Of a stretch of DNA of 64,000 nt, positions 1,083 to 64,000 are shown in pieces. The notes under the pieces were generated by a model. It had not been told where the DNA came from, did not search any database, and saw only the letters and a program-made list of their open reading frames with translations. The stretch is taken from the NCBI RefSeq assembly GCF_000768315.1, contig NZ_AQQX01000009.1, forward strand, positions 1-64,000, read 5' to 3'. This DNA comes from Pseudooceanicola atlanticus (lineage in GTDB: Bacteria > Pseudomonadota > Alphaproteobacteria > Rhodobacterales > Rhodobacteraceae). The position numbers and the translations under genes are program-made. Position 1 is the first letter of the stretch, and the number at the start of each line of letters is the position of its first letter.

Positions 1083-1176
1083 CCACGAAGATTGTCCTGA
1101 GGCCAATAATGGCTTGTTTGGCCCGCTACATCACGCAAGGGTTCTCGGGGCCGCACTTTTAACAATACCGACGACC

Positions 1177-3543
1177 TCAGAAAATTTCGAAATCGGTGTT
1201 GCTAAGCGTCGCTCCTTGATCGAAGGTCGCGATCAAGTGCTGCGCGCCGGCCCCGGATCCGTCCGCATCGAACCACAGACGCCCCGAGGCCTGATCAAAG
1301 ATGAAACGATCGTTTGCGTCGGCCGCGGATGTCCCCGCCCGGAACAAGGCCGCGCCAAGGGTTCCGACACCGATTCCGCCAAAAATCGCGCCCTTCATCT
1401 TGAGGATGTCCCCGGCCCCCCCGCCGCCGACGTTGAAATCGATGATCCGGTCGACATTTGTCGGGCCGTAAGCGCGGTCGAATACAAAGGTGTCTGCCCC
1501 ACCCTGTCCCTTCAGCGTATCTCGCCCTTCGCGGCCGACGATGGTGTTGGCGTAGGGTGTACCGATAATGGTGTTGTCGAGCGCATTGCCGATCCCGTTC
1601 AGGTTGGCCGGCGTTCCGTTCTTAGTGAAGACGTTCTGCATATGCAGTTGTTCCACATGTGCCTCGAGAGCGTAGGAACGATAAGCGCGGACCGCGTCGT
1701 TGCCCTCCGCGGCTTGTTCCTGAACCGTATCGCCAGGTGCGCGGACAAGATAGGTATCGTCACCTTCTCCACCGATCATGGTGTCGTTGTTCTTGCCACC
1801 GTCCAGGATATTGTCCTGGCTATTGCCGGTGATCTTGTTCTGAAGACCGTTGCCCGCGCCGAGGATCGCAGTATCGGTCAGCTCCAAGTCTTCGATATGC
1901 TTCCGCCCCATTCGGAAATCCACGCTGGAAACCACGGTGTCATGACCTGCCCAATTGCGACTTTCGACGACGACGTCGAATTGGCTGTCGACGTGGATTA
2001 CGTCGGAGCCGGGGCCCCCATTCATGTAGTCGGCTCCCGCTCCACCTAAGATGGTGTCGTTTCCGGCGCCCCCCAAAAAACGTTCGCCTCCGTTTCCTCC
2101 TTTCAGAAAATTGTTCAAACTGTTTCCGTTGACGGTCAACGGCGCATTCCCAGTCAGCCAGATGTCATTCACATTGCCCGCCAAGAAGAACTCGCCCGAC
2201 GCACCCAATTCGCCCTCCAAGGTCAGATTGTCGTGCGAAACCACGCCCCGATCAATAAACGCATGGCGCTCCATTATCACTTCGCCATTGTCAGCCAAGG
2301 ACTCGTTCGCGGTTTCCCAATCCGCAAAATTGATCTCATACGCGTCATCACCATCGCCCATGGCGACCCGGAAGACGGGAGCATCCAGTTCGACCGTGCG
2401 GAAATACGTGGTGTTTGCGGTGCCAGCCTCGTTCTCAAGCGCCCATGACACAAGAACCTCATTCGCGGACAGGGCCGCAACTTCTGGCTTGCCCATCAGC
2501 ATACGCCCGCCAAGATCACTGGCGACCACCATTGGAGGTTCGTCCACACGGGGACCGGACGAATTCATCTCCATCAGCCACAGCTTGTTGTCGCCGTAGA
2601 ACACCATGACACCGCGATCAGACGAAACCGGAACCGCCGACAGCCCCCTCATATCCGTTACGCCAAAAAGCGCCGTTCCGGGATAGGTGGAATGCGCCTG
2701 TGTAAATGTAGATTTCAGCCCCTCACCTTCAGTCCGAAGGAAATAGAGGCTCGAGCCGTTGGTATAGACAAAGCCGACCGCCCCATCACCAAATCCAATA
2801 CCCGCCGCGTCCTGTCCATCCCCATTACGTGGATGCGCGCTTCCACCTATCGCGCCGTTCGTCGCAGTGATCGTGCTTTCGCTGTAGTAGGATACGGTTG
2901 GGTCCTCATATTGCACCACTTTGGCAAACCCGAAATAACTGCCATCCGGAGCAATCGCGATTTCTGCCCCGGTTTCATCGTAGGCACTGCTGTTCGAGAT
3001 ACGGACATAGTTCGTGTTTCCGTCGGACGTTAGGAAGACCCGATATGCGTTAGAACCGTTACCGGACGATCCTTCACTCGGGTCAATCTGGTCATAGGCG
3101 GCGACGATGGTATTCTGTGTCGTGACTTCAAGGTCGGTGAGCGTCAGATTTTCGCCCGACACAAGGGTGACCAGGTCCCCAACCGGTGCTGCCGCCGTGT
3201 TGAATTTCTGGATTACGATCTCTTCAACGGGTCCATCTACAGTGTTGTGGACTTGGACCCAAGCAAGAACGAAACCCCCGAATTTCAGGGCGGCAATGAA
3301 AGGTGGACGCTCTTCGGGAATGTATTCAAGGAATCCATCATCACCCAGAATGGCCGGAGCAACTTCGAAATCGTGCGTGACCTCGCCGTCGGCCGTCTGA
3401 ACCACAACACCTCTTGTGCCTGAACTTTCGCCCGCCTGGAAATAGGTCGACACGATCCGACCGTCGAAGGTACGCACGAAAGTATCCGCAAACTCTGAGT
3501 TGAGCGTATTGGTCTTAACAACAAAAGGCGACGAAACGGTCAT
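1177..3543 (-). CDS. RTX hemolysin-type calcium-binding protein with unknown N-terminal domain
   Basis: This 788-residue, probably secreted protein has no signal peptide, as expected for type I secretion. Residues 1 to about 480 form a head with recurring strands such as GGFVLAWVQ and NEVLVSWAL, which suggests a beta-propeller-like fold seen in other roseobacter RTX proteins; I do not recognise an enzyme. Residues from about 485 carry RTX nonapeptides (GGAGNDTILGG, GGAGADYMNGG) and then the conserved tail (WAGHDTVVS, FRMGRKHIEDLEL, GREGRDTLKGQGG, RFIFDQASGRLWFD). The protein ends in Phe-Glu-Ile-Phe. The ATG is preceded by AGGAG on the - strand. No T1SS ABC/membrane-fusion genes are in the window, so the exporter would have to be encoded elsewhere. 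Confidence 0.85.
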   Translation of the reverse strand: MTVSSPFVVKTNTLNSEFADTFVRTFDGRIVSTYFQAGESSGTRGVVVQTADGEVTHDFEVAPAILGDDGFLEYIPEERPPFIAALKFGGFVLAWVQVHNTVDGPVEEIVIQKFNTAAAPVGDLVTLVSGENLTLTDLEVTTQNTIVAAYDQIDPSEGSSGNGSNAYRVFLTSDGNTNYVRISNSSAYDETGAEIAIAPDGSYFGFAKVVQYEDPTVSYYSESTITATNGAIGGSAHPRNGDGQDAAGIGFGDGAVGFVYTNGSSLYFLRTEGEGLKSTFTQAHSTYPGTALFGVTDMRGLSAVPVSSDRGVMVFYGDNKLWLMEMNSSGPRVDEPPMVVASDLGGRMLMGKPEVAALSANEVLVSWALENEAGTANTTYFRTVELDAPVFRVAMGDGDDAYEINFADWETANESLADNGEVIMERHAFIDRGVVSHDNLTLEGELGASGEFFLAGNVNDIWLTGNAPLTVNGNSLNNFLKGGNGGERFLGGAGNDTILGGAGADYMNGGPGSDVIHVDSQFDVVVESRNWAGHDTVVSSVDFRMGRKHIEDLELTDTAILGAGNGLQNKITGNSQDNILDGGKNNDTMIGGEGDDTYLVRAPGDTVQEQAAEGNDAVRAYRSYALEAHVEQLHMQNVFTKNGTPANLNGIGNALDNTIIGTPYANTIVGREGRDTLKGQGGADTFVFDRAYGPTNVDRIIDFNVGGGGAGDILKMKGAIFGGIGVGTLGAALFRAGTSAADANDRFIFDQASGRLWFDADGSGAGAQHLIATFDQGATLSNTDFEIF

Positions 3544-3712
3544 TGAAAAACTCCTAAGTGAAAATTTGGCTCTAAATATTGCGACCCTTGCAGGTCTTAT
3601 CCGTGAGGGAAAGCCACAGGATCAGCGCGTCGGCCTTTTTCAGGAGCCACGAAACCTGAAGGCGACCGAAGTTGCCACCTTTGCAAATTGTTTGAACTAG
3701 TCCATCGACCGT

Positions 3713-5389
3713 TCAGAAAATTTCGAAGTCCGAAACCGACAGACTTGCCGACTGCCCAAAGGTCGCGACAAGCACCTTTTCTGCAGCTCCGCTGCCGTCC
3801 TCGTCGAACCACAATTGACCGGTCGCCTGATTAAAAACGAAGCGGTGATCTGCCGTAGAAGCTGCGGCACCGAAACCCAGGGCATTGGAGGCCAGACTGC
3901 CTGCGGCCATGCTGCCGAATTCAATACCTTTCAACTTCAGCATATCGCCCGCGCCTCCGCTACCGACGTTGAAGTCGACGATATGATCAACGTTTCCGGC
4001 CCCTAGTGCTCGGTCAAAAATAAAAATGTCCGCCCCACCCTGTCCTTCAAGCGTATCGTTACCCTCCCGACCGATCAGCCAGTTCTCGCCGTCATTTCCG
4101 GTGATCGTGTTATCAAGCCCATTGCCGATCCCGTTTGCAGTACGATCTTCGAAAGGATTCAGACTGACATCCGTAAGGATCAGGTTTTCCAAATGGGCGG
4201 ACAACTTGTAGCGAGAACTTGCCGCCACAGTGTCAATGCCGCGGTTCGCCCCTTCGATCACGACCGAATCCGGACTGCGAACGATATAGTAGTCGTCACC
4301 CGACCCTCCGAGGAGCCGCGTGATATCCTCTGGCTCCACAAAGGCATCTGGGTGGTAGTAGGATGTCAGAGTGTCATTTCCGGCCAACCCGCGCAGCGTA
4401 CCGCCTGGTCCAGTGGTCATGTCGTTATCACCGACATTCCCGACTCCAACCAAGGCTTCGCTAGATCCGATCGCACGGACCACGCCGAGGTTCTCGATCG
4501 CATCTGGCAATTTGTAGCTGTAGCTCACGGTGACCAGGTCAGTGCCACCACCCCCACTCTCGATGATCTTGACAGTCCGGTTGTCAGAAAGCCTGTACCA
4601 GTCATCGCCGTCGCCGCCGGACAACAGGTCAACACCTTCGCCAGGGTTAAGAGTGTCATTAGAGGACGAGCCTAACAGCGTATCGTTACCACGCTGTCCC
4701 TTGAGGTCTGCGCCGAACTTTCGGCCCCCGAACGCCAGTTCTGGCGCGCGGCGCGCATCTAGCAGATCGTCCCCACCAAACCCGAAAACCTCAACATTCT
4801 GACCGTTGACCCGAACCACATTGTCCAAACCGTTCATGTAGACGATGCGGGTATCGAAGTTCAGGTTGTCAGGGCTGGGTGCATCGCCGACGATCGAAAG
4901 ATTTTCGATATAGCCACCGCCCTTCGCTGCCTGACTTCCTGTTCCAAGGTTAATTGCACTGTCAGTGATTACGTGGTCGGTCCCTGGAGCGCCGTCTTCT
5001 TCGAAGATATCGGGATAGTCCCAGTCGCGGTTGGAATTGCCGGTATTGTATATGACATAGGTGTCAGACCCATCACCACCATTGATAAACGTGTCGAGCG
5101 GCTCCGCGAAGAACGTATCGTCACCGGCACCGCCAAAATAACCATCACCGCCGTCGCCCCCAACGAACCAATCATCCCCAGAATTCCCGGTGAGAAGATC
5201 ATTGCCCCCCATACCGAAAAGACTGTCGTCACCGATACCTCCGAAGATTTGATCGTTGTCGTTGCCACCCCTCAGCAGATCCGCTCCTGCTGCGCCGAAT
5301 ACGGTGTCCTGCCCGGCGCCTCCATATATCGAGTCGTCCGCTGAGCCTCCAGAAAGCCCGTCGCCGAAGTTCGTTCCGTTGATAAGCAT
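3713..5389 (-). CDS. RTX calcium-binding protein, repeats throughout
   Basis: I chose the ATG at 5389 (product MLINGTNFGDG...), because RTX repeats begin at once and a GGGGTGG lies just upstream. An in-frame ATG at 5443 would add 18 hydrophobic residues from AT-rich leader DNA and has no visible ribosome site. The 558-residue product is mostly glycine/aspartate-rich nonapeptides (GGAGQDTVFG, GGIGDDSLFG, GGDGSDTYVI) separated by linkers ending in IENL-type strands. Its last 120 residues are a diverged version of the tail of its neighbours (GREGNDTLEGQGG, HIVDFNV, HRFVFNQATGQLWFD, ending FEIF). There is no separate enzymatic or adhesive head, so it may be structural or a surface-layer-like calcium-binding protein; that is inference. 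It is followed by the 1177-3543 gene after 169 bp. Confidence 0.82.
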   Translation of the reverse strand: MLINGTNFGDGLSGGSADDSIYGGAGQDTVFGAAGADLLRGGNDNDQIFGGIGDDSLFGMGGNDLLTGNSGDDWFVGGDGGDGYFGGAGDDTFFAEPLDTFINGGDGSDTYVIYNTGNSNRDWDYPDIFEEDGAPGTDHVITDSAINLGTGSQAAKGGGYIENLSIVGDAPSPDNLNFDTRIVYMNGLDNVVRVNGQNVEVFGFGGDDLLDARRAPELAFGGRKFGADLKGQRGNDTLLGSSSNDTLNPGEGVDLLSGGDGDDWYRLSDNRTVKIIESGGGGTDLVTVSYSYKLPDAIENLGVVRAIGSSEALVGVGNVGDNDMTTGPGGTLRGLAGNDTLTSYYHPDAFVEPEDITRLLGGSGDDYYIVRSPDSVVIEGANRGIDTVAASSRYKLSAHLENLILTDVSLNPFEDRTANGIGNGLDNTITGNDGENWLIGREGNDTLEGQGGADIFIFDRALGAGNVDHIVDFNVGSGGAGDMLKLKGIEFGSMAAGSLASNALGFGAAASTADHRFVFNQATGQLWFDEDGSGAAEKVLVATFGQSASLSVSDFEIF

Positions 5390-54289: not shown

Positions 54290-55072
54290 TCACTCCTCTG
54301 CCGTGACGGGGTTGGAGAGCGTGCCGATGCCGGTGATCTCGACCTCGACCCGGTCACCGGGGCGCAGGTTCGGGGCATGGCCGTCCGTGCCCATCCAGAT
54401 CACGTCGCCGGGTTGCAGGGTGATGTAGCGGGTGATCGCCACCAGGAAGTCGCGCACTCCAAAGATCATGTCGGCGGTGCGAAACCGGGTGGTGACGTCG
54501 CCGTTGACGCGGACGATGGTTTCCATGTCCTCCAGCCGGGCTTCGGTGTCGATCCAGGGGCCCATCGGCTTGAACGTGTCGGCATTCTTCGCGCGCCACA
54601 GGGTGCGGTCGGATTTCTGCCAGCTGCGTTCGGAGACATCGTTGCCGATCGTGTAGCCCAGCACGCAATCCAGCGCGGTCTCTTCGGTCAGATGACGGGC
54701 CTGCCGGCCGATTACCACGACCAGTTCGCCCTCGTATTGCACCTTCTCGGTGGCGTCGCGGGGGATGATTATGGGGGCGTCATGGGGGATCAGCGCGCTT
54801 TGGGCGCGATAGCCGACATCGGGCTGGGTCGGCAGGTTCGGCACCTGGCCCGCGCGTTCCGCGACCTCGCGGACATGGGCGGCATAGTTCAACCCGACGC
54901 AATAGAAGGTGGGCGGGACCACGGGGACCATCAGGGTGACCTCGGCCAAGGGCAGCACCCGGTCGGTCAGGCTGTGCCCGGCAAAGGGGTCGCCCTCAAT
55001 CACGCGCAGGGTGTCGCCCTCGACCAACCCGTAGCGGGGCGTGCCCGCATCGTCAAAGCGCGCCCACCTCAT
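54290..55072 (-). CDS. fumarylacetoacetate hydrolase (FAH) family protein
   Basis: A cytoplasmic protein of 260 residues. The FAH core contains FYCVGLNYAAH (about residue 55), a metal site including YEGELVVVIGRQARHLTEETAL (Glu pair, about 113), GYTIGNDVSERSWQ (Asp, about 145) and PMGPWIDTEARLED (about 172). LQPGDVIWMGTDGHAPNLRPGD at the end is the usual closing motif. Such enzymes hydrolyse acylpyruvates, decarboxylate oxaloacetate-like acids or hydrate dienoates. The gene overlaps the SnoaL-like gene by 4 bp and precedes the dehydrogenase by 4 bp. Confidence 0.9.
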   Translation of the reverse strand: MRWARFDDAGTPRYGLVEGDTLRVIEGDPFAGHSLTDRVLPLAEVTLMVPVVPPTFYCVGLNYAAHVREVAERAGQVPNLPTQPDVGYRAQSALIPHDAPIIIPRDATEKVQYEGELVVVIGRQARHLTEETALDCVLGYTIGNDVSERSWQKSDRTLWRAKNADTFKPMGPWIDTEARLEDMETIVRVNGDVTTRFRTADMIFGVRDFLVAITRYITLQPGDVIWMGTDGHAPNLRPGDRVEVEITGIGTLSNPVTAEE

Positions 55073-55491
55073 GCCCTTGCCTCCGCCTGGAAGGTGACGG
55101 GATCGCTCCAGACCCGGCGAAGGCGCCAGCCCTCGGGCGTTTCGACCGCACGGGCATGGACAGAGCGGAGCGAGGTGAAGCCCGGCATAGGCAACGGCCC
55201 CTCGTGGTCCGGGCCGGGATCGTGTTGCAGCACGCTCATATAGGCCGAAACGGATACTGCATCGGGGCCGCGTTCGGTGGTGATATTGGTCAGCAGGTGG
55301 CGGATGATCCGGGTCTGGGAGCGGTCGGCCATGGCCGCCATCAGGCTGTCGCGATCCGCGATCTCGACTCCGCGGCGCAGCCAGACGCCGCCCTCGATCA
55401 GGTCGGCCATCAGCGCGTAATCATTGCGATCCAGCGCGCCGAAGAAGCGGGTCAGCGCGTTGGCCGCCCCCCAGGTGTCGTGATGTTGCAT
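55069..55491 (-). CDS. SnoaL/NTF2-like protein
   Basis: A small cone-shaped-barrel protein of 140 residues. ALTRFFGALDRNDYALMADLI (about residues 11-31), TRIIRHLLTNITTE (about 64), VSAYMSVLQHD (about 85) and GWRLRRVWSDP at the C-terminus match the SnoaL_4 pattern. I chose ATG 55491, with GGGAGGG upstream; the frame is open further but then overlaps the GntR gene. Relatives act as small isomerases, dehydratases or hydroxylase subunits, often with TauD-like or Rieske oxygenases. Its exact role is not known. Confidence 0.8.
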   Translation of the reverse strand: MQHHDTWGAANALTRFFGALDRNDYALMADLIEGGVWLRRGVEIADRDSLMAAMADRSQTRIIRHLLTNITTERGPDAVSVSAYMSVLQHDPGPDHEGPLPMPGFTSLRSVHARAVETPEGWRLRRVWSDPVTFQAEARA

Positions 55492-55543
55492 GTCCCTGGG
55501 GCCCTCCCCTGCCCCGGTGCCGTGCCGCCCCGATCCGGCGGCG

Positions 55544-56290
55544 TCAGTCCGGCGGATCGACGAAGCCGATACCGGACGAGCCGTCGCGCAGCACCAGGTC
55601 CACGTTGAACGCGTAGCGGGACGGGTGATAGCGGACCTCCTGGTAGTAGATCCGTTCGTCCTTGACGGTGAAATAGACGCGGGCGGCGCAGATGATCGGC
55701 GTGCCCTCATCCAGGTCCAGGGCCTGGGCGACCTCTCCCTCGGCGGCCATGGGGCGCAGGACCTGTTCGGCGCGGTGCACGCGGCGCTTGATCCGGATGC
55801 CCATGGCGATGGCTGTGGCGATCGGGCGCTGTGAATCGCCCTCTTCCACGCGGCCCTCGTCCGTATCGGGGGAATAGCCGTCGGCGATGGTCAGGGGCGC
55901 GTCGTCATCGCGGCGCACCAGCGTGCGCAGGTGGCGCACCGGCGCCCCAAGGTCGAGGCCAAGCGCATGCGCGACCTCGGCCCCCGCCGTTTCGGCGACG
56001 TTGAAGACCGGTTCCGACCGGAAAAGCCGCGCCTCTTCGATAAAGCCCACGAGGTTGAATTCGCGCGCCGTGTGACTGCGCCCGGTGACGAAGGTGCCGA
56101 CGCCGGGGCGGCGCACCAGCAGCCCCTTTTCGACCAGCTGCGCGATGGCGGCGCGGATGGTGATGCGGCTGACCCCGTATTCCTCGCACAGGGAGGCCTC
56201 GCTTGGCAGCATGGCCCCCTTTTCGAACCCGTCCCGCTGGACACGGGAGAGCAGATCGCGCGACACTCTTTCATACAGGACTTCGGCCAT
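55544..56290 (-). CDS. GntR/HutC-family regulator
   Basis: A DNA-binding regulator of 248 residues: winged helix at 1-70 (LYERVSRDLLSRVQRDGFEKG, LPSEASLCEEYGVSRITIRAAIAQLVEKGLLVRRPGVGTFV) and UTRA domain at 90-240 (VRHLRTLVRRDDDAPLTIADGY, CAARVYFTVKDERIYYQEVRYHPSRYAFNVDL). It is first in the - strand operon with the SnoaL-like, FAH and Ldh2 genes. A TTAT/ATAA dyad lies 26-45 bp before its ATG, consistent with self-repression. A related site precedes the TauD-like gene. Confidence 0.9.
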   Translation of the reverse strand: MAEVLYERVSRDLLSRVQRDGFEKGAMLPSEASLCEEYGVSRITIRAAIAQLVEKGLLVRRPGVGTFVTGRSHTAREFNLVGFIEEARLFRSEPVFNVAETAGAEVAHALGLDLGAPVRHLRTLVRRDDDAPLTIADGYSPDTDEGRVEEGDSQRPIATAIAMGIRIKRRVHRAEQVLRPMAAEGEVAQALDLDEGTPIICAARVYFTVKDERIYYQEVRYHPSRYAFNVDLVLRDGSSGIGFVDPPD

Positions 56291-56418: not shown

Positions 56419-58596
56419 TTAGCCGAAGGAATGCTTCGACAGCGGCAGGCTGCGGATACGCTGACCGGTCAGGGCGTAGACCGCGTTGACGATGGCCGGA
56501 CCGACGGCCGGCAGACCCGGCTCGCCGACGCCGCCCATCTCTGCGCCGCTTTCGATGATGTCGACATGAACCGCCGGCATCTGGTCGGGCCGCAGGATCG
56601 GATAGCCGTCGAAGTTGCGCGCCGTGGGTTCGCCGTTCTCGTAGACCAGCTCCTCCACCAGCGTCTGGGACACGCCAAGCGCGACGGCGGATTGCACCTG
56701 CGCCTCGATGATGCCGGGGTTCACGATCTGGCCCGGATCCAGCACCGTCCAGACATTGTGCACCCGCACCTCGCCCCGGTCGAGCGAGACCTCGGCAATC
56801 GCCGCGGCCTCGGACCCGAAGGGCGACGCCATGGCGACGCCCCGGGCGCGGGTCGTGCCGTCAACCTCGTAGGGGCCGGACTGCCAGCCCCCGGACAGCT
56901 CCCCGGTGCGGGTCAGCAGGGTGTGCAGGCGGTCGTTGCCGGACAACAGGTTCAGCCGCATCTGGTAGGGATCGAGGCCCCCGGCCGCCGCCAGTTCATC
57001 CAGGAAACATTCATACATGAAGTCATGCATGGAATGGCCGACCGAACGCCAGTATCCGATCACCGCCGGGTTCGCGACGGGCACCTGCCCGACATAGCTG
57101 TTGGCGATGGCATAGCTCTTGCCCGAGATGCCTTCGTGGGCCGAGACATCGGGCCCCGGAGGGGCGCCGTACCACCGCTGGGTCGGGCCTTCGCCCACCA
57201 CCGTCGCCTCGAGCGCGACAGGGCCGTCGGCGCCGACCGCACCGCGGAACCGAGCGAGGCCAAGCGGGCGCGGCGCGTCGCGCAGGAAATCCTCTTCACG
57301 GCTCCAGATCAGCTTGACCGGGCGGCCAGTGGCCTGGGCCATCGCGATGGCCTGCGGGAAGGGATTGGCCGTGCGGTACAGGAAATGCCGCCCGAAGAAC
57401 CCACCCAGCATCTGCGAGTGAATCCGCACCTGCGCCGGTTCAATTCCGGCGGCAGAGGCCGCGGCCCCCTGGAACTGCTCCGGCGCCTGGTTCGGCAGCC
57501 AGAGGTCCAGCGTGCCGTCCTCGTTGAAGCGGGCAGTGGCCGATGGCGGCTCCAGCTGGCCATGCACGACGAAGGGGGCGTCATATTGCGCCTCGATCAC
57601 GTTGTCGGCCTCGGACAGGGCGGTGGCGGCATCGCCTGTCGCCTCAATCTCGACCGCGTCGCCGCTGGCCTCCGACAGGGTCGCGCGGAAGCTGTCGGAG
57701 GAGAAATCGGCTGGCATCGGCCATTCGGCCTCGCCTTCGGTCCATTCGACCTGAAGCGCGGCCACCGCGTTGCGGGCCTGCCAGAACTTCTCGGCCACGA
57801 CACCGACGGCACCGTTCAGCAGATGCACCGAATGCACGCCGCGCATGCCTTCGACCTCTGCAAGGTTGGCGACGGAGGCCGGGGTCAGACCCAGCCGGGG
57901 CGCGTGCAGGACGGCGGCGAGCAGCATGTCCTCGACCGTGACGTCGATGGCATATTGCGCCTTGCCGGTGGATTTCTCGTAGACATCGAGCCGCGGTACG
58001 GCGGTCTTGATCCAGCGGAAATCGGCCTCGTCCTTCAGGGCGACCTCGGCGGGGACAGGCAGGGCCATGGCGGCGTCGGCCAGATCGCCGTAGGGCGCGC
58101 GGCGGTTCGATGCCGCATGCACCACGACACCGGGTTCGGTCGTCAGTTCGGACGCATCGACATCCCATTCGGCGGCGGCGGCCTGCAGCAGCATCGCGCG
58201 GGCAGAGGCGCCCAGCTGACGCATCAGCCCGTAAGCCGTGCGGGTGGAGGCGCTGCCCCCGGTGATGCGGAAACCGCCCATGACACCATAGGGCGGGCCC
58301 GGCGGTGCGGAGGTGACGGTGAAGTTTTCCGGAGCGAGATCAAGCTCTTCACCGATGATCTGGGCGAAGGTGGTGAACACCCCCTGCCCGCCTTCGATGA
58401 AGGGGCTGAGCAGGCGCGCGGTGCCATCGGTGTGCAGTTCGAGGAAGGCGGGGACGTCGGGGCCGGCGGCGGCCTCCTGCGCCTTGGGCGCGCGCACCGG
58501 GATGGTGGTGGACAAGACCAGCGCACCGGAACCGGCGAGGAAACCGCGGCGCGAGACCTTGGCGGGCATGCGGGTGAGGCGTTGCATGAGGGTCAT
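56419..58596 (-). CDS. xanthine dehydrogenase-family molybdopterin subunit (IorB-like)
   Basis: The large subunit of a molybdenum hydroxylase, 725 residues. A Tat signal (VSRRGFLAGSGALVL, twin Arg at 16-17) suggests export of the folded holoenzyme. Mo-cofactor segments are SPFIEGGQGVFTTFAQIIGEEL (about residue 63), GGFFGRHFLYRTANPF (about 398) and WSREEDFLRDAPRPLG (about 432). AVALGVSQTLVEELVYENG (about 634) and GGVGEPGLPAVGPAIVNA, with the catalytic Glu, lie near the end. Two-subunit enzymes of this type oxidise N-heterocycles or aldehydes and pass electrons to a cytochrome c. It follows the [2Fe-2S] gene by 3 bp. The substrate is not evident. Confidence 0.9.
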   Translation of the reverse strand: MTLMQRLTRMPAKVSRRGFLAGSGALVLSTTIPVRAPKAQEAAAGPDVPAFLELHTDGTARLLSPFIEGGQGVFTTFAQIIGEELDLAPENFTVTSAPPGPPYGVMGGFRITGGSASTRTAYGLMRQLGASARAMLLQAAAAEWDVDASELTTEPGVVVHAASNRRAPYGDLADAAMALPVPAEVALKDEADFRWIKTAVPRLDVYEKSTGKAQYAIDVTVEDMLLAAVLHAPRLGLTPASVANLAEVEGMRGVHSVHLLNGAVGVVAEKFWQARNAVAALQVEWTEGEAEWPMPADFSSDSFRATLSEASGDAVEIEATGDAATALSEADNVIEAQYDAPFVVHGQLEPPSATARFNEDGTLDLWLPNQAPEQFQGAAASAAGIEPAQVRIHSQMLGGFFGRHFLYRTANPFPQAIAMAQATGRPVKLIWSREEDFLRDAPRPLGLARFRGAVGADGPVALEATVVGEGPTQRWYGAPPGPDVSAHEGISGKSYAIANSYVGQVPVANPAVIGYWRSVGHSMHDFMYECFLDELAAAGGLDPYQMRLNLLSGNDRLHTLLTRTGELSGGWQSGPYEVDGTTRARGVAMASPFGSEAAAIAEVSLDRGEVRVHNVWTVLDPGQIVNPGIIEAQVQSAVALGVSQTLVEELVYENGEPTARNFDGYPILRPDQMPAVHVDIIESGAEMGGVGEPGLPAVGPAIVNAVYALTGQRIRSLPLSKHSFG

Positions 58597-58599
58597 GGA

Positions 58600-59046
58600 T
58601 CAGGCCTCCGACGCGCTGCGCACGGCGTCGCGGATCTTGTTGTAGGTGCCGCAGCGGCACAGGTTGCTCATCGCGGCCTCGACATCCTCATCGGTGGGAT
58701 TGGGCGTCTCGGAGAGCAGCGCGGTCGCGGCAAGGACCTGACCGGATTGGCAATATCCGCATTGCGGCACCTGGTTTTCGACCCAGGCCTCGACCACGCG
58801 GCGGCCCACATCGGTGTCCTCGACGGTTTCGATGGTGCGAATCTCGGTGCCTTCGGCGCTGGAGGCCGGCGTCACGCAGGACCGGGTGGCGTAGCCGTCG
58901 ACCAGCACGGTGCAGGCACCGCAGGCGGCGATGCCGCAGCCATATTTGGTGCCGGTGAGGCCCAGTTCCTCGCGAATGACCCAGAGCAGGGGCGTGTCCG
59001 GATCGACGTCGACCTCGCGGGTCGTTCCATTGACTGTCAGCTGCAT
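58600..59046 (-). CDS. [2Fe-2S]-binding subunit of molybdenum hydroxylase (IorA-like)
   Basis: A 148-residue protein with two [2Fe-2S] clusters: plant-ferredoxin-type Cys37, Cys42, Cys45 and Cys57, and the helical-domain set Cys96, Cys99, Cys130 and Cys132 ([15 protein letters not shown]). I chose ATG 59046 with GGAAGGAG upstream. The protein lacks its own signal, so it would be co-exported with the Tat-tagged large subunit. No FAD subunit gene is nearby, in line with the IorAB/aldehyde-dehydrogenase two-subunit type. Confidence 0.93.
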
Positions 59047-59217
59047 CGGAAGGCTCCTTCCATGATGTTGCGCCCCTCGACCGGTTGCTAACCCACGGTG
59101 AGAGAACAGAATTTTGGCTATACTCAGAATATGGGGCAAACCCGGCCCATGACCATGAGGCGCAGGCCGATAGCAGCTATGGGGCAGGCTCATCAATCGC
59201 GCCCCGCCCCGGAGCCG

Positions 59218-59664
59218 CTAGTCCGCCAGGGTGATCCGCACCGGGATTTCCCCGGCACGGGACAGCGCGTCGATGGGGCCGTCGAATTCGCCGATCCGGA
59301 CCAGCCCGGCAGAGGACTGGAAGGGTTTCAGAAAGATGGCGAGGTTGCTCCATGGGCGGTACTGGGTGATGTCGCCGGCCTTGGGTTCATAGGCGCGCGG
59401 GGCGCCTGCATTGTCGATCTGGCGCCCAAGATCTCCAACCTTTTCAATGCCGTGGTAGTCGTCCAGCGTGATTTCGAGCGGCAGCATGGAGGCAAAGTCA
59501 CGACCCGCTGCGGTATCGTCCAGGGTGGCGGTCAATGTCTCGGTGCCGATTGTCACGTCTATCTTGATCATCTTGTCCTCGTTCTGGGCCATGGCGGGCC
59601 CGGCAAGACCCGCGAGGGTGAGGCCGATCAGGGCGGAAAAGGCGGTGCCGGTCCTGTGCATCAT
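59218..59664 (-). CDS. exported cyclophilin-like fold protein
   Basis: A 148-residue protein. The ATG at 59664 follows AAAGGA and begins a Sec signal (ALIGLTLAGLAGPAMA, cleavage near residue 26). The mature part is a cyclophilin-like barrel of the DUF/Cyclophil_like type: IKIDVTIGTETLTATLDD, AAGRDFASMLPLEITLDDYHGIEK, GDITQYRPWSNLAIFLKPF and VRIGEFDG. Family members that I know are usually cytoplasmic and sit near LysR regulators, cupins and carboxymuconolactone-decarboxylase proteins, as here. No activity is established. Two LysR-type dyads and an 11-bp repeat array lie in its upstream region. Confidence 0.82.
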   Translation of the reverse strand: MMHRTGTAFSALIGLTLAGLAGPAMAQNEDKMIKIDVTIGTETLTATLDDTAAGRDFASMLPLEITLDDYHGIEKVGDLGRQIDNAGAPRAYEPKAGDITQYRPWSNLAIFLKPFQSSAGLVRIGEFDGPIDALSRAGEIPVRITLAD

Positions 59665-59739
59665 GGGTCCTTTCATCTGCGTCACCTTGCAAGATAGCCC
59701 AGCGACGGGCCGGGATAAGCCCCGCAAGATCGCTGGCAC

Positions 59740-59758
59740 TCATGAGCCGCCCTCATCA
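59740..59758. promoter_or_regulatory. LysR-type dyad A
   Basis: TCATGAGCCGCCCTCATCA: arms TCATGAGC and CCTCATCA around a 3-bp centre, the same layout as the perfect dyad at 63578-63596. Confidence 0.6.
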
Positions 59759-59777
59759 TTGGGTACGCCCGAAACCG

Positions 59778-59810
59778 CGTCGGTATCACGTCGGTATCAC
59801 GTCGGTGTGT
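59778..59810. repeat. three head-to-tail 11-bp repeats (second copy)
   Basis: Units CGTCGGTATCA, CGTCGGTATCA and CGTCGGTGTGT. The first 30 bases differ from the array at 21337-21369 in one position. Here it lies 114-146 bp upstream of the cyclophilin-like gene, in the same orientation as the first array has to phnD. Confidence 0.7.
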
Positions 59811-59825
59811 CATCAGTCGGGCCGC

Positions 59826-59844
59826 TCATGAGCCTGCCTCATCG
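59826..59844. promoter_or_regulatory. LysR-type dyad B
   Basis: TCATGAGCCTGCCTCATCG differs from dyad A in two of 19 positions and has the same orientation. Confidence 0.6.
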
Positions 59845-59966
59845 GTGTCATCCAGAGCGGGCGCATTGTTCGCCCGGCCCCGGCCCATAGGTTCTGGGCA
59901 GCAGACCGGGATCGGCCCGGTCGCCGGCCCCTCTGGCCGCCTCGCTTGATAAAGGAGACGACCGAC

Positions 59967-60473
59967 ATGACACTTACCCTTGCCAAACCGACGCGCCGCC
60001 CCGCGCTGTTCCCCGCCCTTGCCGCCGGGCTGGGCCTTGCCCTGACCCTGGCCGCCCAGACGGCCAACGCGCAATCCATGGAAGTCACCAAGGCCGAGGA
60101 CCTGGCCGGCCAGATCGGGTCGTCCGAGACCTTCACCGGCACCGCCTATGTCGCGCCGGTCTTCGGCCCGAACATGAACCAGGTGACCGCCGGTCACGTG
60201 ACCTTTCTGCCCGGCGCCCGGTCGGCCTGGCACACCCATCCCGTCGGCCAGCAACTGGTCGTGACCTCGGGCACCGGCTGGACCCAGGAACGCGGTGGCG
60301 AGAAATACGTGATCGAAGCCGGTGACGTGGTGTGGTGCCCGCCGGGTGTCGAACACTGGCACGGCGCGACCGATACCACCGCCATGTCGCATTACGCGAT
60401 CCAGGCCAGCGACGGCGAAAGCGCCGTGGAATGGGGCGAACTGGTTTCCGACGAGGAATATCATGACCATTGA
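59967..60473 (+). CDS. exported cupin-domain protein
   Basis: A 168-residue protein. ATG 59967 follows GGAGA, and a Sec signal (LFPALAAGLGLALTLAAQTANA, cleavage near residue 36) opens the product. The single cupin barrel has metal ligands in WHTHPVGQQLVV (His-x-His and Gln, about residue 84) and GDVVWCPPGVEHWHGA (His, about 122). Homologues of this small type are often annotated as quercetin-dioxygenase-like, but usually lack a signal peptide. Its stop overlaps the PQQ-type dehydrogenase start by 11 bp. Confidence 0.87.
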   Translation: MTLTLAKPTRRPALFPALAAGLGLALTLAAQTANAQSMEVTKAEDLAGQIGSSETFTGTAYVAPVFGPNMNQVTAGHVTFLPGARSAWHTHPVGQQLVVTSGTGWTQERGGEKYVIEAGDVVWCPPGVEHWHGATDTTAMSHYAIQASDGESAVEWGELVSDEEYHDH

Positions 60474-61482
60474 TCCTGCAAAGGGTGTGCGCGGCCTGAT
60501 CCTGGCCGCGCTTCTTCTGCCTGCGGCCCAGCCGGTCGCAGCGCAGGAGGAGGTTCTGGCCGGGCTCGATTACCCTTGGGATATCGAGGCGGCTGAGGGC
60601 CGCATCTACATCACCGAAAAGGCCGGCACGCTGGGCATCTTCGACGGCGAGAGGCTGGACCGACTGCCGGTCCAGACCAGCGCGCCGATCCTGAACGATC
60701 GCGGCGGCGGGTTGATGGGCCTGGCGCTGACACCGGATTTCGCCAGCAGCGGGCGGGTTGTCCTCTATCACCACACCGGCACCCCGCAGGCGCGGGAGAA
60801 CCGGGTGATCGAGGCCGTTCGCGACGGCGATACCTGGCGCGAGACACGGGTCCTGCTGGACGGCATCCCCGGCCATCCGCTCTATAACGGGGGGCGTGTC
60901 GCCTTTGGGCCGGACGGGATGCTGTACGTCACCACCGGCTGGACCGAGAACCGCGAACGACCGCAGGACCCCGACAGCCTGGCGGGCAAGATCCTGCGCC
61001 TGACCCCGGACGGGGCGGTGCCGGAGGACAACCCGTTCGAGGGCTCGCCCGTCTGGTCGCTGGGCCACCGCAACCCGCAGGGCATCGCCTGGTCCGGGGA
61101 CGGCACGCTATATGCCGCCGAGCATGGGCAATCCGGTCATGACGAGGTCAACCGGATCGAGGCGGGCGGCAATTACGGCTGGCCGCTGATCCAGGGCGAC
61201 GAAACCGGCGACGGGCTGACCGCGCCGCTGGCCCATTCCGGCGGCCGGACCTGGGCGCCCTCGGGGCTGGCCTGGGACGGGGACCGGCTGTTGCTGGCCT
61301 CCTTGCGGTCGGGCGCGGTGCTGTCGGTGTCGACCGGCGGCGACGTGGGCACGGCCCATGATGCGGGCGAGCGGATCCGCGACGTGCTGGTGACCGAGGA
61401 TGGCCTGTGGGCGATCACGACGAACCGGTCGCCGCGCCGCGACGGCCCGTCGCGCGACCGGCTGATCCGGTTCACCCGGTAG
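60463..61482 (+). CDS. exported PQQ-dependent sugar dehydrogenase family protein
   Basis: A 339-residue beta-propeller protein of the soluble glucose/sorbosone dehydrogenase family. ATG 60463 follows GAGGAA, and the Sec signal ends near AAQ (residue 28). Family segments are GLDYPWDIEAAEGRIYITEKAG, GGGLMGLALTPDF, VLYHHTGT, GGRVAFGPDGMLYVTTG, SLAGKILRLTPDG and WSLGHRNPQGIAWSGDGTLYAAEHG (holding the conserved His/Arg of the active site). GGNYGWPLIQGDETG follows. Known members oxidise sugars or aldehydes in the periplasm with PQQ. Translational overlap with the cupin suggests related functions. Confidence 0.88.
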   Translation: MTIDPAKGVRGLILAALLLPAAQPVAAQEEVLAGLDYPWDIEAAEGRIYITEKAGTLGIFDGERLDRLPVQTSAPILNDRGGGLMGLALTPDFASSGRVVLYHHTGTPQARENRVIEAVRDGDTWRETRVLLDGIPGHPLYNGGRVAFGPDGMLYVTTGWTENRERPQDPDSLAGKILRLTPDGAVPEDNPFEGSPVWSLGHRNPQGIAWSGDGTLYAAEHGQSGHDEVNRIEAGGNYGWPLIQGDETGDGLTAPLAHSGGRTWAPSGLAWDGDRLLLASLRSGAVLSVSTGGDVGTAHDAGERIRDVLVTEDGLWAITTNRSPRRDGPSRDRLIRFTR

Positions 61483-61499
61483 CACTTAATCCATGGACC

Positions 61500-61518
61500 T
61501 CATGAGGGAGGCGCATAT
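61500..61518. promoter_or_regulatory. weak LysR-type dyad D upstream of lysR
   Basis: TCATGAGGGAGGCGCATAT keeps the left arm TCATGAG, but the right arm is poorly conserved. It lies 54-72 bp before the preferred lysR start. Confidence 0.35.
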
Positions 61519-61571
61519 ATCATGTGCAGAGATCAGAGATGATCCTTGATCGACAAAGCCAGGCCTCCCTC

Positions 61572-62468
61572 ATGTTGCGCGAAAATATCAACGACCTCAT
61601 CGCTTTGGCGGCCGTGGCCGAAGAGCGAAGCTTTACCAAGGCCGCCGCGCGGCTGAACGTGTCGCAATCGGCGCTTAGCCATACGATCAAGGGGCTGGAA
61701 AAGCGCCTTGGCCTGCGGCTGCTGACCCGCACGACGCGATCCGTGGCGCCGACGCTGGAGGGCGAGGATCTGCTGGCCACGCTGAACCCGTGTTTCGAGA
61801 AGATCGAGGCGCGGCTTCAGGCCTTGAACGATGCACAGGACCAGCCCACGGGCACGGTGCGGATCGTGGCGGTGGAATATGCCATCGACACCATCCTGTG
61901 GCCCAAGCTCGGGCCGGTGCTGAAGCAGCATCCCAGCGTGAATGTCGAGTTCGTGATGGATTACGGCTATACCGACCTGGCCGCGTCGCAATGCGATGCG
62001 GGCGTGCGTTATGGCGACCAGGTGAGCGACGGCATGATCGCGATGCGGATCGGCCCGGATGAACGGATGATCTGCGTCGGGGCGCCGGACTACCTGGACG
62101 ATGCCGGGACGCCGCAGCGACCGCAGGATCTGACCGATCACCGCTGCATCAACCTGCGGCTCTCGACCCATGGCGCGCTCTATGCCTGGGAATTCGAAGA
62201 ACCGGACGGGACCGAGATCAACGTGAAGGTGCGCGGGCAGGCCTGTTTCAACACCATCCACCCGGTGATGCGGGCGGCGATCGACGGACATGGGCTGGCG
62301 CTGGTGCCCGACCGGCTGGCCGCCCCCGAGATCGAGGCCGGGCGGTTGCGCGTCTGCCTCGAGGATTATTCGCCGCCTTTCCCCGGTTTCCACCTCTATT
62401 ACCCCAGCCGGCAGCGCCCGTCCTCGGCCTTCCAGGTGGTGCTGGACGCGTTGCGGCATCGCGACTGA
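61572..62468 (+). CDS. LysR-family transcriptional regulator
   Basis: A 298-residue regulator. Residues 1-62 form the winged helix (ALAAVAEERSFTKAAARLNVSQSALSHTIKGLEKRLGLRLLTRTTRSV). Residues 88-295 form the LysR effector domain (GTVRIVAVEYAIDTILWPKL, DAGVRYGDQVSDGMIAMRIG, FNTIHPVMRAAIDGHGLALVPDRLA). I chose ATG 61572 because family members start with MLRENxNDL. In-frame GTG 61524 and ATG 61539 are alternatives, and no start has a good ribosome site. It lies in the middle of the exported-protein module and probably binds the dyads listed around it. Confidence 0.9.
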   Translation: MLRENINDLIALAAVAEERSFTKAAARLNVSQSALSHTIKGLEKRLGLRLLTRTTRSVAPTLEGEDLLATLNPCFEKIEARLQALNDAQDQPTGTVRIVAVEYAIDTILWPKLGPVLKQHPSVNVEFVMDYGYTDLAASQCDAGVRYGDQVSDGMIAMRIGPDERMICVGAPDYLDDAGTPQRPQDLTDHRCINLRLSTHGALYAWEFEEPDGTEINVKVRGQACFNTIHPVMRAAIDGHGLALVPDRLAAPEIEAGRLRVCLEDYSPPFPGFHLYYPSRQRPSSAFQVVLDALRHRD

Positions 62469-62495
62469 TCCCGCGGGGGCGTTGCGGGGGACCAT

Positions 62496-62514
62496 TGATG
62501 AGGGGCGTTCATGG
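62496..62514. promoter_or_regulatory. LysR-type dyad C upstream of CMD-family gene
   Basis: On the - strand it reads CCATGAACGCCCCTCATCA, matching dyad A in 14 of 19 positions. It lies 85-103 bp before the CMD-family start. Confidence 0.55.
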
Positions 62515-62598
62515 CTGCCTTGGGGGGCTGGGCCATTAACCTGACGTCCGGGAACCCCAGATTGTGGTGCAGACATGCATTGCAACAGGAGACCCCTC

Positions 62599-63363
62599 AT
62601 GAAGTCCTATATCGCCGCCTCTGCCATGGCGCTTTTCGCCACCGGTGCCACCGCCCAGGAGCTGGGCTCGACCCTGCCCGGGTCTGTCGGCCAGGTCGCG
62701 CCCGCCCTTCAAAACTACATGACCGAAGACCTGTTCGGCGATGTCTGGGGCGGCGAGGAATTGTCGGCCCGCGATCGCGCGCTGGTCACCTTTGCCGCGC
62801 TGATGACCCGACATGAGACCGACAATCTGGAAAGCCACGTTGCCCTGGCGCTGGATGCCGGCGTGACCCCGGCCGAAATTTCCGAGACGATCACCCATCT
62901 CGCCTTCTATACCGGGGTCGGCAACGCCTTTGCCGCCGCCGAGGCCGCAGCCCCTGTCTTCGAGGCGCGCGGGATCGCGGCCGAGGACCTGCCCGGCACC
63001 GACGTGGAGTTGCTGCCGCTGAACGAAGAGGCCGAGGCCGCCCGCGAGGAAACCGTGAGCGGGAATTATGGCAACGTGTCCATGGGCGTCGTCGACACCA
63101 CCCGCGAGATCCTGTTCCGCGACGTCTGGCTGCGCCCGGACCTTGTACCGCGCGACCGGTCGCTGGTGACCGTGGCCGGGCTGATTGCCGCGGGCCAGCC
63201 CGAGCAGATGACCTTTCACCTGAACCGCGCGATGGATAACGGGCTGACCCAGGAAGAGGCCGGCGCGATGCTGTCGCACCTGGCCTTCTACGCAGGCTGG
63301 CCGCGGGTCTTCTCGGCGCTGCCGGTGGCCAAGGAGGTCTTCGAGACCCGCGCCGGCGACTGA
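62599..63363 (+). CDS. exported double carboxymuconolactone decarboxylase-family protein
   Basis: A 254-residue protein. ATG 62599 follows GGAGA, and a signal peptide (SYIAASAMALFATGATAQ) ends near residue 20. Two CMD domains follow. The first has LSARDRALVTFAALMTRHETDNLESHV and ITHLAFYTGVGNAFAAAEAA (about 55-125). The second has VPRDRSLVTVAGLIAAGQPEQMTFHLNRA and LSHLAFYAGWPRVFSALPV (about 180-245). The protein contains no cysteine, so it cannot work as an AhpD-type peroxidase-reductase; a lyase, lactonase or binding role remains possible. Export is unusual for the family. It is followed by a strong terminator. Confidence 0.88.
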   Translation: MKSYIAASAMALFATGATAQELGSTLPGSVGQVAPALQNYMTEDLFGDVWGGEELSARDRALVTFAALMTRHETDNLESHVALALDAGVTPAEISETITHLAFYTGVGNAFAAAEAAAPVFEARGIAAEDLPGTDVELLPLNEEAEAAREETVSGNYGNVSMGVVDTTREILFRDVWLRPDLVPRDRSLVTVAGLIAAGQPEQMTFHLNRAMDNGLTQEEAGAMLSHLAFYAGWPRVFSALPVAKEVFETRAGD

Positions 63364-63378
63364 CCCCCGGCGCATTCC

Positions 63379-63416
63379 CCGGCCCGCGCGAGGGACAGCG
63401 CGCGGGCCGGTTTTTT
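63379..63416 (+). terminator. intrinsic terminator after CMD-family gene
   Basis: A perfect 12-bp stem (CCGGCCCGCGCG 63379-63390, CGCGCGGGCCGG 63399-63410), 8-nt loop, then six T. Confidence 0.92.
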
Positions 63417-63577
63417 GTGGGGTGTTGTTCGGGTTCTTCGGCCCTGCGGATGGCCTGGCTCTTTCTTTGAGCTCAGCCGTTATCTACCGCCCGGCGGACA
63501 GGCCGGGCCGCGCCGCGTTCACCGGCAGCGGATTGCAGCGCACCAACTCTCTCCAATCCTCCTCTCAAATACCTCAC

Positions 63578-63596
63578 TCATGAAGCCCCTTCATGA
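63578..63596. promoter_or_regulatory. LysR-type dyad F, perfect copy
   Basis: TCATGAAG-CCC-CTTCATGA is a perfect 8-bp inverted repeat with a 3-bp centre. It lies 121-139 bp upstream of the last gene and defines the layout shared with dyads A, B and C. Confidence 0.65.
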
Positions 63597-63716
63597 CTGG
63601 CGTGCATTGAAACGCCTTTACGCCTTGTCGTTACATCCCACATCTACAGCATGAACACGGCACGGGCGGTCCCTTCAAACGGACCCGTTCGCCAGGCAAT
63701 ACAAACGGAGACGGAC

Positions 63717-64000
63717 ATGAAGATCGGCATTCTGGGATCGGGACTGATGGGCGGCAAGCTGGGTCAGATCTGGGCCAGAAGCGGCCATGACGTCACCTTT
63801 GCCTATGCCCGCAACCACGCCAAGCTGGAACGGCTGGCCGCCGAATGCGGTGGCCATGCGGGCAGCGTGGCCGAGGCGGTCGAGGGCGCGGATGCGGTTC
63901 TGCTGGCGGTGCATTGGTCGCGGGTTGGCGACGTGCTGGACCAGGCCGGTGACCTGGCGGGCATGGTCGTGCTGAATTGCTGCGTGCCGCTGGATGACAG
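63717..64000 (+). CDS. NAD(P)-binding oxidoreductase (F420-dependent NADP reductase-like), partial
   Basis: Only the first 94 residues are in the window. ATG 63717 has GGAG 7-8 nt upstream. The product begins with a Rossmann loop (KIGILGSGLMGGKLGQIWARSGHDVTF; Gly8, Gly10 and Gly13 region), followed by ARN/AKLERLAAECG and ADAVLLAVHWSRVGDVLDQAG, as in NADPH-dependent F420 reductase-family proteins that mostly use NADP. It has no signal peptide, unlike the other structural products of this LysR module. The 3' end lies beyond the window. Confidence 0.85.
   Translation, partial: MKIGILGSGLMGGKLGQIWARSGHDVTFAYARNHAKLERLAAECGGHAGSVAEAVEGADAVLLAVHWSRVGDVLDQAGDLAGMVVLNCCVPLDD

Follow-up and report, generated by a model that had tools for sequence, protein, structure and literature searches.

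What would bring a cupin, a cyclophilin-like protein, a GSDH-fold protein, a double-CMD protein and an oxidoreductase together with a LysR-family regulator, and why do several of them appear to be exported? The question is raised by a gene module of Pseudooceanicola atlanticus, seen at positions 59218–64000 of the window, that is, of the whole stretch of 64,000 nucleotides analysed here (positions 1–64000 of a 124 kb contig; the genome is 4.94 Mb), and extending beyond both ends of the part under study. A first-pass annotation had taken it for a relocated, periplasmic version of a cytoplasmic module, perhaps for detoxifying a reactive compound outside the cytoplasm, an interpretation that is partly supported but too narrow. 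The explanation we favour, and hold to be moderately probable, is that the genes form one LysR-controlled regulon directed against reactive carbonyls, most likely aldehydes, whose products would act on both sides of the inner membrane. Among the open-access papers listed by full-text searches, none was recognised as describing such a module.

Of 194 related genomes, 10 have a CMD orthologue (at least 55% identity over almost the full length), as do 6 of 22 genomes of the genus Pseudooceanicola. A profile made from 11 CMD orthologues gave 458 relatives, with one genome per species, and the best 80 loci were combined with the window locus and two others (L048 and L049) to form the set of 83 loci used below; eight more loci duplicated members of the 80 and stayed out of the counts. 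By title, the best 80 come mostly from Rhodobacterales-type genera, and also from Bosea, Rhizobium, Duganella, Arhodomonas and an acidobacterium. Neighbouring genes are undercounted, since 22 of the 83 loci are shorter than 18 kb. Relatives of the CMD gene also occur on plasmids, with 120 plasmid records matching at E ≤ 1e-30.

Export signals on both module and neighbouring proteins

At the P. atlanticus locus, Sec-type signal peptides open four proteins: the cyclophilin-like protein (59218–59664, minus strand, starting at 59664 or 59676; PF18050 Cyclophil_like2, 105 bits), the cupin CupP (59967–60473, plus strand), the GSDH-fold protein (60463–61482, plus strand; PF07995, 218.8 bits against a cut-off of 25) and the double-CMD protein (62599–63363, plus strand; PF02627, 130 bits in two stretches). 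No Sec-type start is seen on the LysR-family regulator (61572–62468, plus strand), which has both the HTH_1 and LysR_substrate domains and is nearest to the NCBIfam model YafC (143 bits, cut-off 470), or on the F420_oxidored-type NAD(P)-binding oxidoreductase (63717–64352, plus strand), which runs past the window end at 64000. The genes lie where the first-pass annotation had put them, and the signal peptides it had read were found again both here and in the related loci.

For the survey of homologous clusters that had been proposed, one home-made signal-peptide rule was applied at its lowest threshold to every gene of the 83 loci. It scored as exported 81 of 83 CMDs, all 56 CupP proteins, 19 of 22 GSDH hits, 41 of 56 cyclophilin-like proteins and 11 of 13 IorB proteins (of the IorAB-type pair that adjoins the module), against 1 of 81 cytosolic cupins, 0 of 80 LysRs and 0 of 16 IorA proteins as controls. 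The cyclophilin-like count is low, because five proteins scored as without a signal (L062, L099, L103, L113 and L132) look exported by eye; the orthologues in L059, L060, L063, L071 and L084 have no room for one. The rule misfires on the oxidoreductase (60 of 63), presumably through its hydrophobic, glycine-rich Rossmann start, and was therefore not used for it. That the export of CMD, CupP, the GSDH-type protein and the cyclophilin-like protein, as predicted, is real and conserved is well supported.

The module is nevertheless two-sided. The first-pass annotation had regarded the last oxidoreductase as the only cytosolic enzyme, and while no signal was found on it, a cytosolic cupin without a signal peptide (cupC, contig positions 64392–64787) follows it just past the window. 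To call the module relocated is fair, because cytosolic relatives exist, with single-domain CMDs beside cytosolic cupins in L201–L203, but it was not simply moved out. A sample across the phylum, in which 24 of 398 genomes had a CMD match at E ≤ 1e-20, showed full-length double CMDs that score as exported at 9 of 10 loci (L188–L197, the window and the genome of L049 included, the partial L198 excluded); none of its single CMDs was so called, one of them (L204) appearing exported by eye.

Both cupins exceed the cut-off of 140 bits for the NCBIfam family of (R)-mandelonitrile lyase (NF049940), with 160.4 bits for the exported and 189 bits for the cytosolic protein. (R)-mandelonitrile lyase is an aldehyde–cyanide lyase. 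The motif HxH...Q...H, whose residues we take to bind the metal, is kept in 55 of 56 CupP and 79 of 81 CupC proteins. In a cupin sample, 42 of 299 genomes were above the cut-off, and 28 of the best 30 loci were called non-exported, L165 among them looking exported by eye. A quick tree of 85 of 167 cupins placed the 23 sampled CupP proteins in one branch (SH-aLRT 96), and the exported state needs four changes on it compared with 23 in shuffles, in a tree with many open forks that does not set the direction of change and with L165 set as exported by hand. Three cupins outside the CupP branch (L158, L160 and L165) have export signals of their own, twin-arginine-like in two, which suggests independent relocations. 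They are of the type of the Granulicella tundricola hydroxynitrile lyase (GtHNL), which we take to be the protein of PDB 4BIF, 4UXA and 8OZ8 (deposited simply as 'cupin 2 conserved barrel'). It belongs to the same family as the cupins here (E = 9e-37) and shares the metal-ligand motif; CupP differs in being exported and in branching apart, and a lyase activity is only predicted for it.

Twin-arginine (Tat)-like signals were scored in 11 of 15 Ahr-type zinc-dependent alcohol dehydrogenases (Zn-ADHs), 15 of 17 alpha/beta hydrolases and all 12 clustered orthologues of IorB, and in none of 30 aldo-keto reductases (AKRs), 20 short-chain dehydrogenases/reductases (SDRs), 18 RibD-like proteins and 55 oxidoreductases; 6 of 74 CMDs also trigger the Tat rule, as does the hydrolase L088_5, one of the 15, which looks cytosolic by eye. 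With a Tat-like signal in some members and others cytosolic, the hydrolase family near the module has two forms. The Tat-bearing Zn-ADHs are found in L054, L056, L062, L064, L065, L067, L068, L070, L073, L114 and L126, and one, that of L114, was run against family libraries for its Ahr-type identity. The periplasm is not known to contain free NADPH, so an exported reductase of an NADPH type would be unexpected.

The LysR-type box and its predicted regulon

What joins exported and cytosolic genes appears to be an operator, the palindrome ATGAG-N5-CTCAT, which is a LysR-type box of the form T-N11-A. A pattern whose gap differed by one base proved too weak and was given up in favour of this one; a repeat search gave nothing useful. 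Six boxes with up to two mismatches occupy five gaps of the locus: one upstream of iorAB, before iorA (59179–59193, one mismatch), two between the cyclophilin-like gene and cupP (59742–59756 and 59828–59842, both exact), one before lysR (61502–61516, one mismatch), one before the CMD gene (62498–62512, one mismatch) and a box-like palindrome before the oxidoreductase gene (63580–63594, two mismatches), the weakest of the six. The two exact copies are the only ones in the genome.

Across the 83 loci, 200 sites with at most one mismatch were found in 501 kb of module, compared with 23 in 924 kb elsewhere, and 199 of the 200 lie outside the coding hits of module genes. Exact sites number 66 among these 200, against 5 for the best of 29 other permuted half-sites. 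Of the 57 loci whose LysR is at least 70% identical to that of the window, 56 have the box, as do 17 of the 26 that lack such a LysR. Counted at up to one mismatch within 350 bases 5' of the gene, it precedes the CMD gene in 55 of 83 cases, cupP in 37 of 56, the cyclophilin-like gene in 37 of 56, lysR in 38 of 79 and iorA in 11 of 16 orthologues. It is rare before the genes for the oxidoreductase (5 of 63), the cytosolic cupin (3 of 81), the GSDH-type protein (3 of 22) and IorB (0 of 13), all of which, in the window and in many relatives, have another gene ahead of them in the same orientation. Taken together, one LysR regulon marked by a conserved box is well supported, with the binding itself predicted.

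The Mo-hydroxylase pair IorAB (56419–59046, minus strand) is very likely a member of the same regulon, judging from its box and its position beside the module in relatives. IorA, its 2Fe-2S subunit (58600–59046, minus strand; Fer2/Fer2_2), is encoded first, followed by the molybdopterin subunit IorB of the xanthine dehydrogenase family (56419–58596, minus strand; MoCoBD_1/2), which has a twin-arginine signal. The pair is adjoined at 54290–56290 (minus strand) by genes that by eye encode a GntR-like regulator and a fumarylacetoacetate-hydrolase-like protein.

Among neighbouring gene clusters, the box was found before 12 of 15 Zn-ADH, 12 of 16 iorA-type (three of the 16 being Tat-bearing and PaoA-like), 13 of 30 AKR and 4 of 6 cytochrome P460 genes, and less often before hydrolase (6 of 17), RibD-like (6 of 18), SDR (3 of 20) and transporter-like (1 of 16) genes. 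The background was 18 of 873 other genes, in binomial tests that ignore relatedness and with starts corrected for AKR and Zn-ADH before the scan and uncorrected for the background. The cytochrome P460-like genes near the module, at L095:6439–6876 and in five other loci, encode exported proteins.

Away from the module, the genome has the box with at most one mismatch in 15 places, of which four were inspected, and two of these fit the regulon. One is 143 bases before an AKR gene resembling the module-adjacent AKR of relatives, the other 125 bases before a gene for PaoA (327.6 bits, cut-off 322) with a twin-arginine N-terminus by reading. P. atlanticus has a PaoA above the cut-off, a subunit of the type found in PaoABC, the periplasmic aldehyde oxidoreductase of Escherichia coli; here it lies behind a LysR box but unlinked to the module, and its membership in the regulon is predicted. 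In L053, a gene pair for PaoA and an FAD subunit (1138–2729, minus strand) and a divergent quinone-oxidoreductase-like gene (3202–4314, plus strand) share a gap with a LysR-type box at 2854. The box by itself is no marker of the module, because exact copies are as numerous in the 16 module-free genomes of the genus (12) as in the six that bear the module (12, ten of them in the module or before iorA).

A sister module was seen in nine loci (L078, L083, L086, L096, L101, L110, L117, L118 and L119) with a different LysR, 38–41% identical. It holds an exported cupin, a CMD and a cytosolic cupin, with a Tat-exported hydrolase upstream in seven of the nine; neither the oxidoreductase nor the cyclophilin-like gene was found in these loci. 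In Mameliella alba (L123) the lysR, GSDH, CMD and cyclophilin-like genes appear broken or split.

The cyclophilin-like gene and its candidate second start

In a class sample, PF18050 had matches in 24 of 240 genomes, most of them weak. Where the signal peptide of the exported cyclophilin-like proteins meets the domain stands a methionine that aligns with the initial residue of the signal-less orthologues, and this is kept as ATG in 36 of the 37 exported genes counted, against 36 of 56 for the matching methionine of CupP (P = 1e-4, relatedness ignored). In the window the internal ATG (59571–59569, minus strand) is preceded by GAGGA and is proposed as a second start, for a cytosolic form. Shine-Dalgarno likeness, measured as a mean core score, is about the same before the internal methionine (4.64, n = 28) as before the upstream starts (4.58, n = 40), whose ribosome sites resemble those of other genes, and compares with 2.31 for other internal methionines (n = 1404) and 0.27 for that of CupP (n = 33). 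The count of genes that keep the methionine, and the shuffles of the 36 genes described next, leave out four of 55 genes without a clear motif (L097 and L103 among them look exported), misread the exported L092 and L111 as non-exported, and include L122 as exported on a doubtful signal call.

Shuffling the linkers of 36 genes synonymously gave a mean core of 4.05 against the 4.64 observed, with a maximum of 4.47 in 500 shuffles, and the number of genes with a core of at least 5 (19) equalled the shuffle maximum. In a set of 20 less redundant genes, in which the row of L085 was misregistered and counted as having no site, the mean was 4.4 against 3.8 when shuffled, and 23 of 2000 shuffles reached the observed mean. 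It speaks against a dual start that the 29 of 36 genes with a core of at least 4 fall inside the shuffle range (mean 25.7, maximum 33). On balance, the comparison is suggestive of one cyclophilin-like gene that may serve two compartments through two starts.

It is a serious possibility, although short of probable, that the protein is only exported, the internal methionine being a relic of its relocation and the resemblance to a Shine-Dalgarno site arising from the amino acids of the linker. Much of the likeness does come from linker residues, as the reduced set shows, the count at a core of at least 4 is no more than shuffling gives, and CupP too has often retained its old methionine. On the other hand, CupP has kept it far less strictly and without such a ribosome site, and the mean core exceeds every shuffle of the full set and nearly all of the reduced one. 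Quite unlikely is a protein that is only cytosolic, with the internal ATG as true start and an untranslated signal-like stretch upstream. The cytosolic orthologues do begin exactly at this methionine, on plasmid pPABY4 the gene is annotated from the internal ATG even though an in-frame signal-like stretch lies upstream, and the predicted structure (mean pLDDT 87) is confident from about residue 31, directly after it. However, the annotation of pP73A takes the upstream start, and signal peptides with normal ribosome sites, encoded upstream in most of the genes, would not be expected of untranslated DNA.

Function, rival readings and significance

Two of the enzyme labels needed revision. As the first-pass annotation had said, the window CMD has no cysteine; 77 of the 83 loci are likewise cysteine-free, and no CXXC was found in the CMD of any of the 83, which disfavours a peroxidase role of the AhpD/RclX type and led us to reject that label. 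PcaC was also rejected, on the curated cut-off, since the protein scores 120.1 bits, in two stretches, against model TIGR02425 with its cut-off of 155.7. A solved relative is 4G9Q, a two-domain protein like the window CMD and presumably from Sinorhizobium meliloti; the family profile covers most of it, at 350 bits. The GSDH-fold protein had been called a PQQ-type dehydrogenase, a label that its catalytic positions put in doubt: it has Tyr in place of the His of 3A9G, 2ISM and 3DAS, and Trp in place of the Asp or Glu found in each of the five aligned structures, residues whose catalytic roles we assume from the soluble glucose dehydrogenase (sGDH) of Acinetobacter calcoaceticus. The altered letters are kept in the module (of 22 hits, 18 have HPLYNGGR with at most one residue changed, and 20 have TTGW), so ordinary sugar oxidation, and with it the name 'sugar dehydrogenase', is doubtful. 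PqqE (TIGR02109) was above its cut-off in none of 20 genomes, P. atlanticus included, nor in any of 14 controls, a search on one marker with no positive control, and PQQ might also be taken up from outside.

A comparable arrangement exists on pSymA of S. meliloti, where a LysR gene is accompanied by genes for an exported monooxygenase-like protein, an exported CMD, DUF2255, an AKR, an exported GSDH-type protein and an exported cupin (signals by eye). It shares with the P. atlanticus module the signal-bearing CMD relative beside LysR, GSDH and exported cupin, and the AKR seen near the module elsewhere, and differs in the quinol-monooxygenase-like protein, in DUF2255 and in having no annotated cyclophilin-like gene; no LysR box was found within its 15 kb stretch. 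A Chimaeribacter plasmid carries a shorter related exported module.

Aldehydes are inferred as the substrate from the company the module keeps. AKR genes (DkgA/DkgB-like, below cut-off) were present in 30 of the 83 loci, and Ahr-type Zn-ADH genes in 15 (258 bits, cut-off 470, for the one run against the libraries). To these are added the PaoA-type gene, the IorAB-type pair and the cupins of the (R)-mandelonitrile lyase family. The window LysR is closest to YafC, whose gene in E. coli adjoins dkgB. Proteins of the same kinds are raised together by the unsaturated aldehyde citral in Acinetobacter baumannii: the five most raised spots on two-dimensional gels were 'BchC' (three spots, 9.8-, 8.7- and 4.3-fold), a cupin (5.5-fold, a second spot 2.8-fold) and a CMD (4.3-fold), with consecutive accessions (PMC7677002, Table 1). 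The likeness is one of enzyme kind, 'BchC' being probably a Zn-ADH. The proteins are described in that study as intracellular, with a cupin of another label, unlike the exported set here (PMC7677002).

In the regulon as we picture it, LysR would bind the box and sense an electrophile, the exported enzymes would convert the compound, or what it gives rise to, ahead of its passage across the membrane, and the cytosolic enzymes would handle whatever gets in, with the cyclophilin-like gene supplying both compartments through two start codons. Of the six cysteines of LysR, five are shared by 55 of 56 near orthologues (each 70% identical or more) and may be used in thiol sensing. A bolder form of the proposal, which we put forward tentatively, is a regulon mirrored across the inner membrane, with paired genes (the exported and cytosolic cupins here, the Tat-exported and cytosolic hydrolases of relatives), the dual start, a Tat-exported aldehyde reductase of the NADPH-dependent Ahr type in some species and a carbonyl role, partly periplasmic, for GtHNL-type cupins.

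Several observations weigh against this reading of the module. The GSDH-type gene is present in few modules, 21 of 83. In the whole window the boxes with up to two mismatches (11) are fewer than expected by chance (shuffle mean 20.9), so it is their clustering, with six of the 11 in the last 5 kb, and not their total that counts. No box with at most one mismatch was found in 10 of the 83 modules, including L114 despite its close LysR; four of the ten show only another LysR, of 39–45% identity. Single remote boxes can be due to chance, since at one mismatch the genome has 30 rows for the box and 14 for the reversed pattern, and the other two inspected, at sucA-like and moaC-like genes, look accidental. 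The cysteines are mostly not kept in nine more distant LysRs, only C192 being common (8 of 9), and thiol sensing is for this reason a suggestion only. Superoxide dismutase genes, recognised by eye near seven modules, have no box (0 of 7). Finally, in the citral study a glyoxalase-family protein is lowered and the raised cupin is labelled yhhW (PMC7677002).

The strongest rival explanation, though we think it unlikely, is a catabolic regulon, in which the exported enzymes would degrade an aromatic or furan compound, with CMD as a true carboxymuconolactone decarboxylase, IorAB as hydroxylase and LysR sensing a pathway intermediate. Protocatechuate pathways commonly include a LysR regulator and a CMD, enzymes of the IorAB and PaoABC types hydroxylate or oxidise ring compounds or aldehydes, and transporter-like genes (MFS by eye) lie near 16 modules. 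Against this, the CMD falls short of PcaC, no ring-cleavage gene was recognised by eye in the neighbour clusters (representatives of six families being run against libraries), and reductases such as AKR, the Ahr type and the RibD-like proteins suit detoxification better. Defence against reactive chlorine or peroxides, which the first-pass annotation had entertained in naming hypochlorite, is improbable: its precedent is Pseudomonas aeruginosa RclX, a CMD-family protein with CXXC that is RclR-regulated on oxidant exposure, to HOCl and HOSCN (PMC7950407), and superoxide dismutase genes do occur near the module, one annotated on pPABY4, but these are boxless, and the window CMD, while sharing with RclX and AhpD a stress-linked superfamily, has two domains, is exported and lacks their CXXC.

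Detoxification thus remains the best reading, as first proposed, but with the cytosolic cupin and oxidoreductase in the same cluster it would not be confined to the outside of the cytoplasm. If the carbonyl regulon is real, the periplasm of these bacteria would be defended against reactive carbonyls by a coordinated counterpart of the cytosolic enzymes, under a single LysR, and the cyclophilin-like gene would be a candidate case of internal initiation that lets a single gene supply two compartments. GtHNL-type cupins, double-CMD proteins and PF18050 proteins, all poorly understood, would find a common place in a single regulon open to testing, every gene of which could be checked through its predicted operator with reporter fusions.

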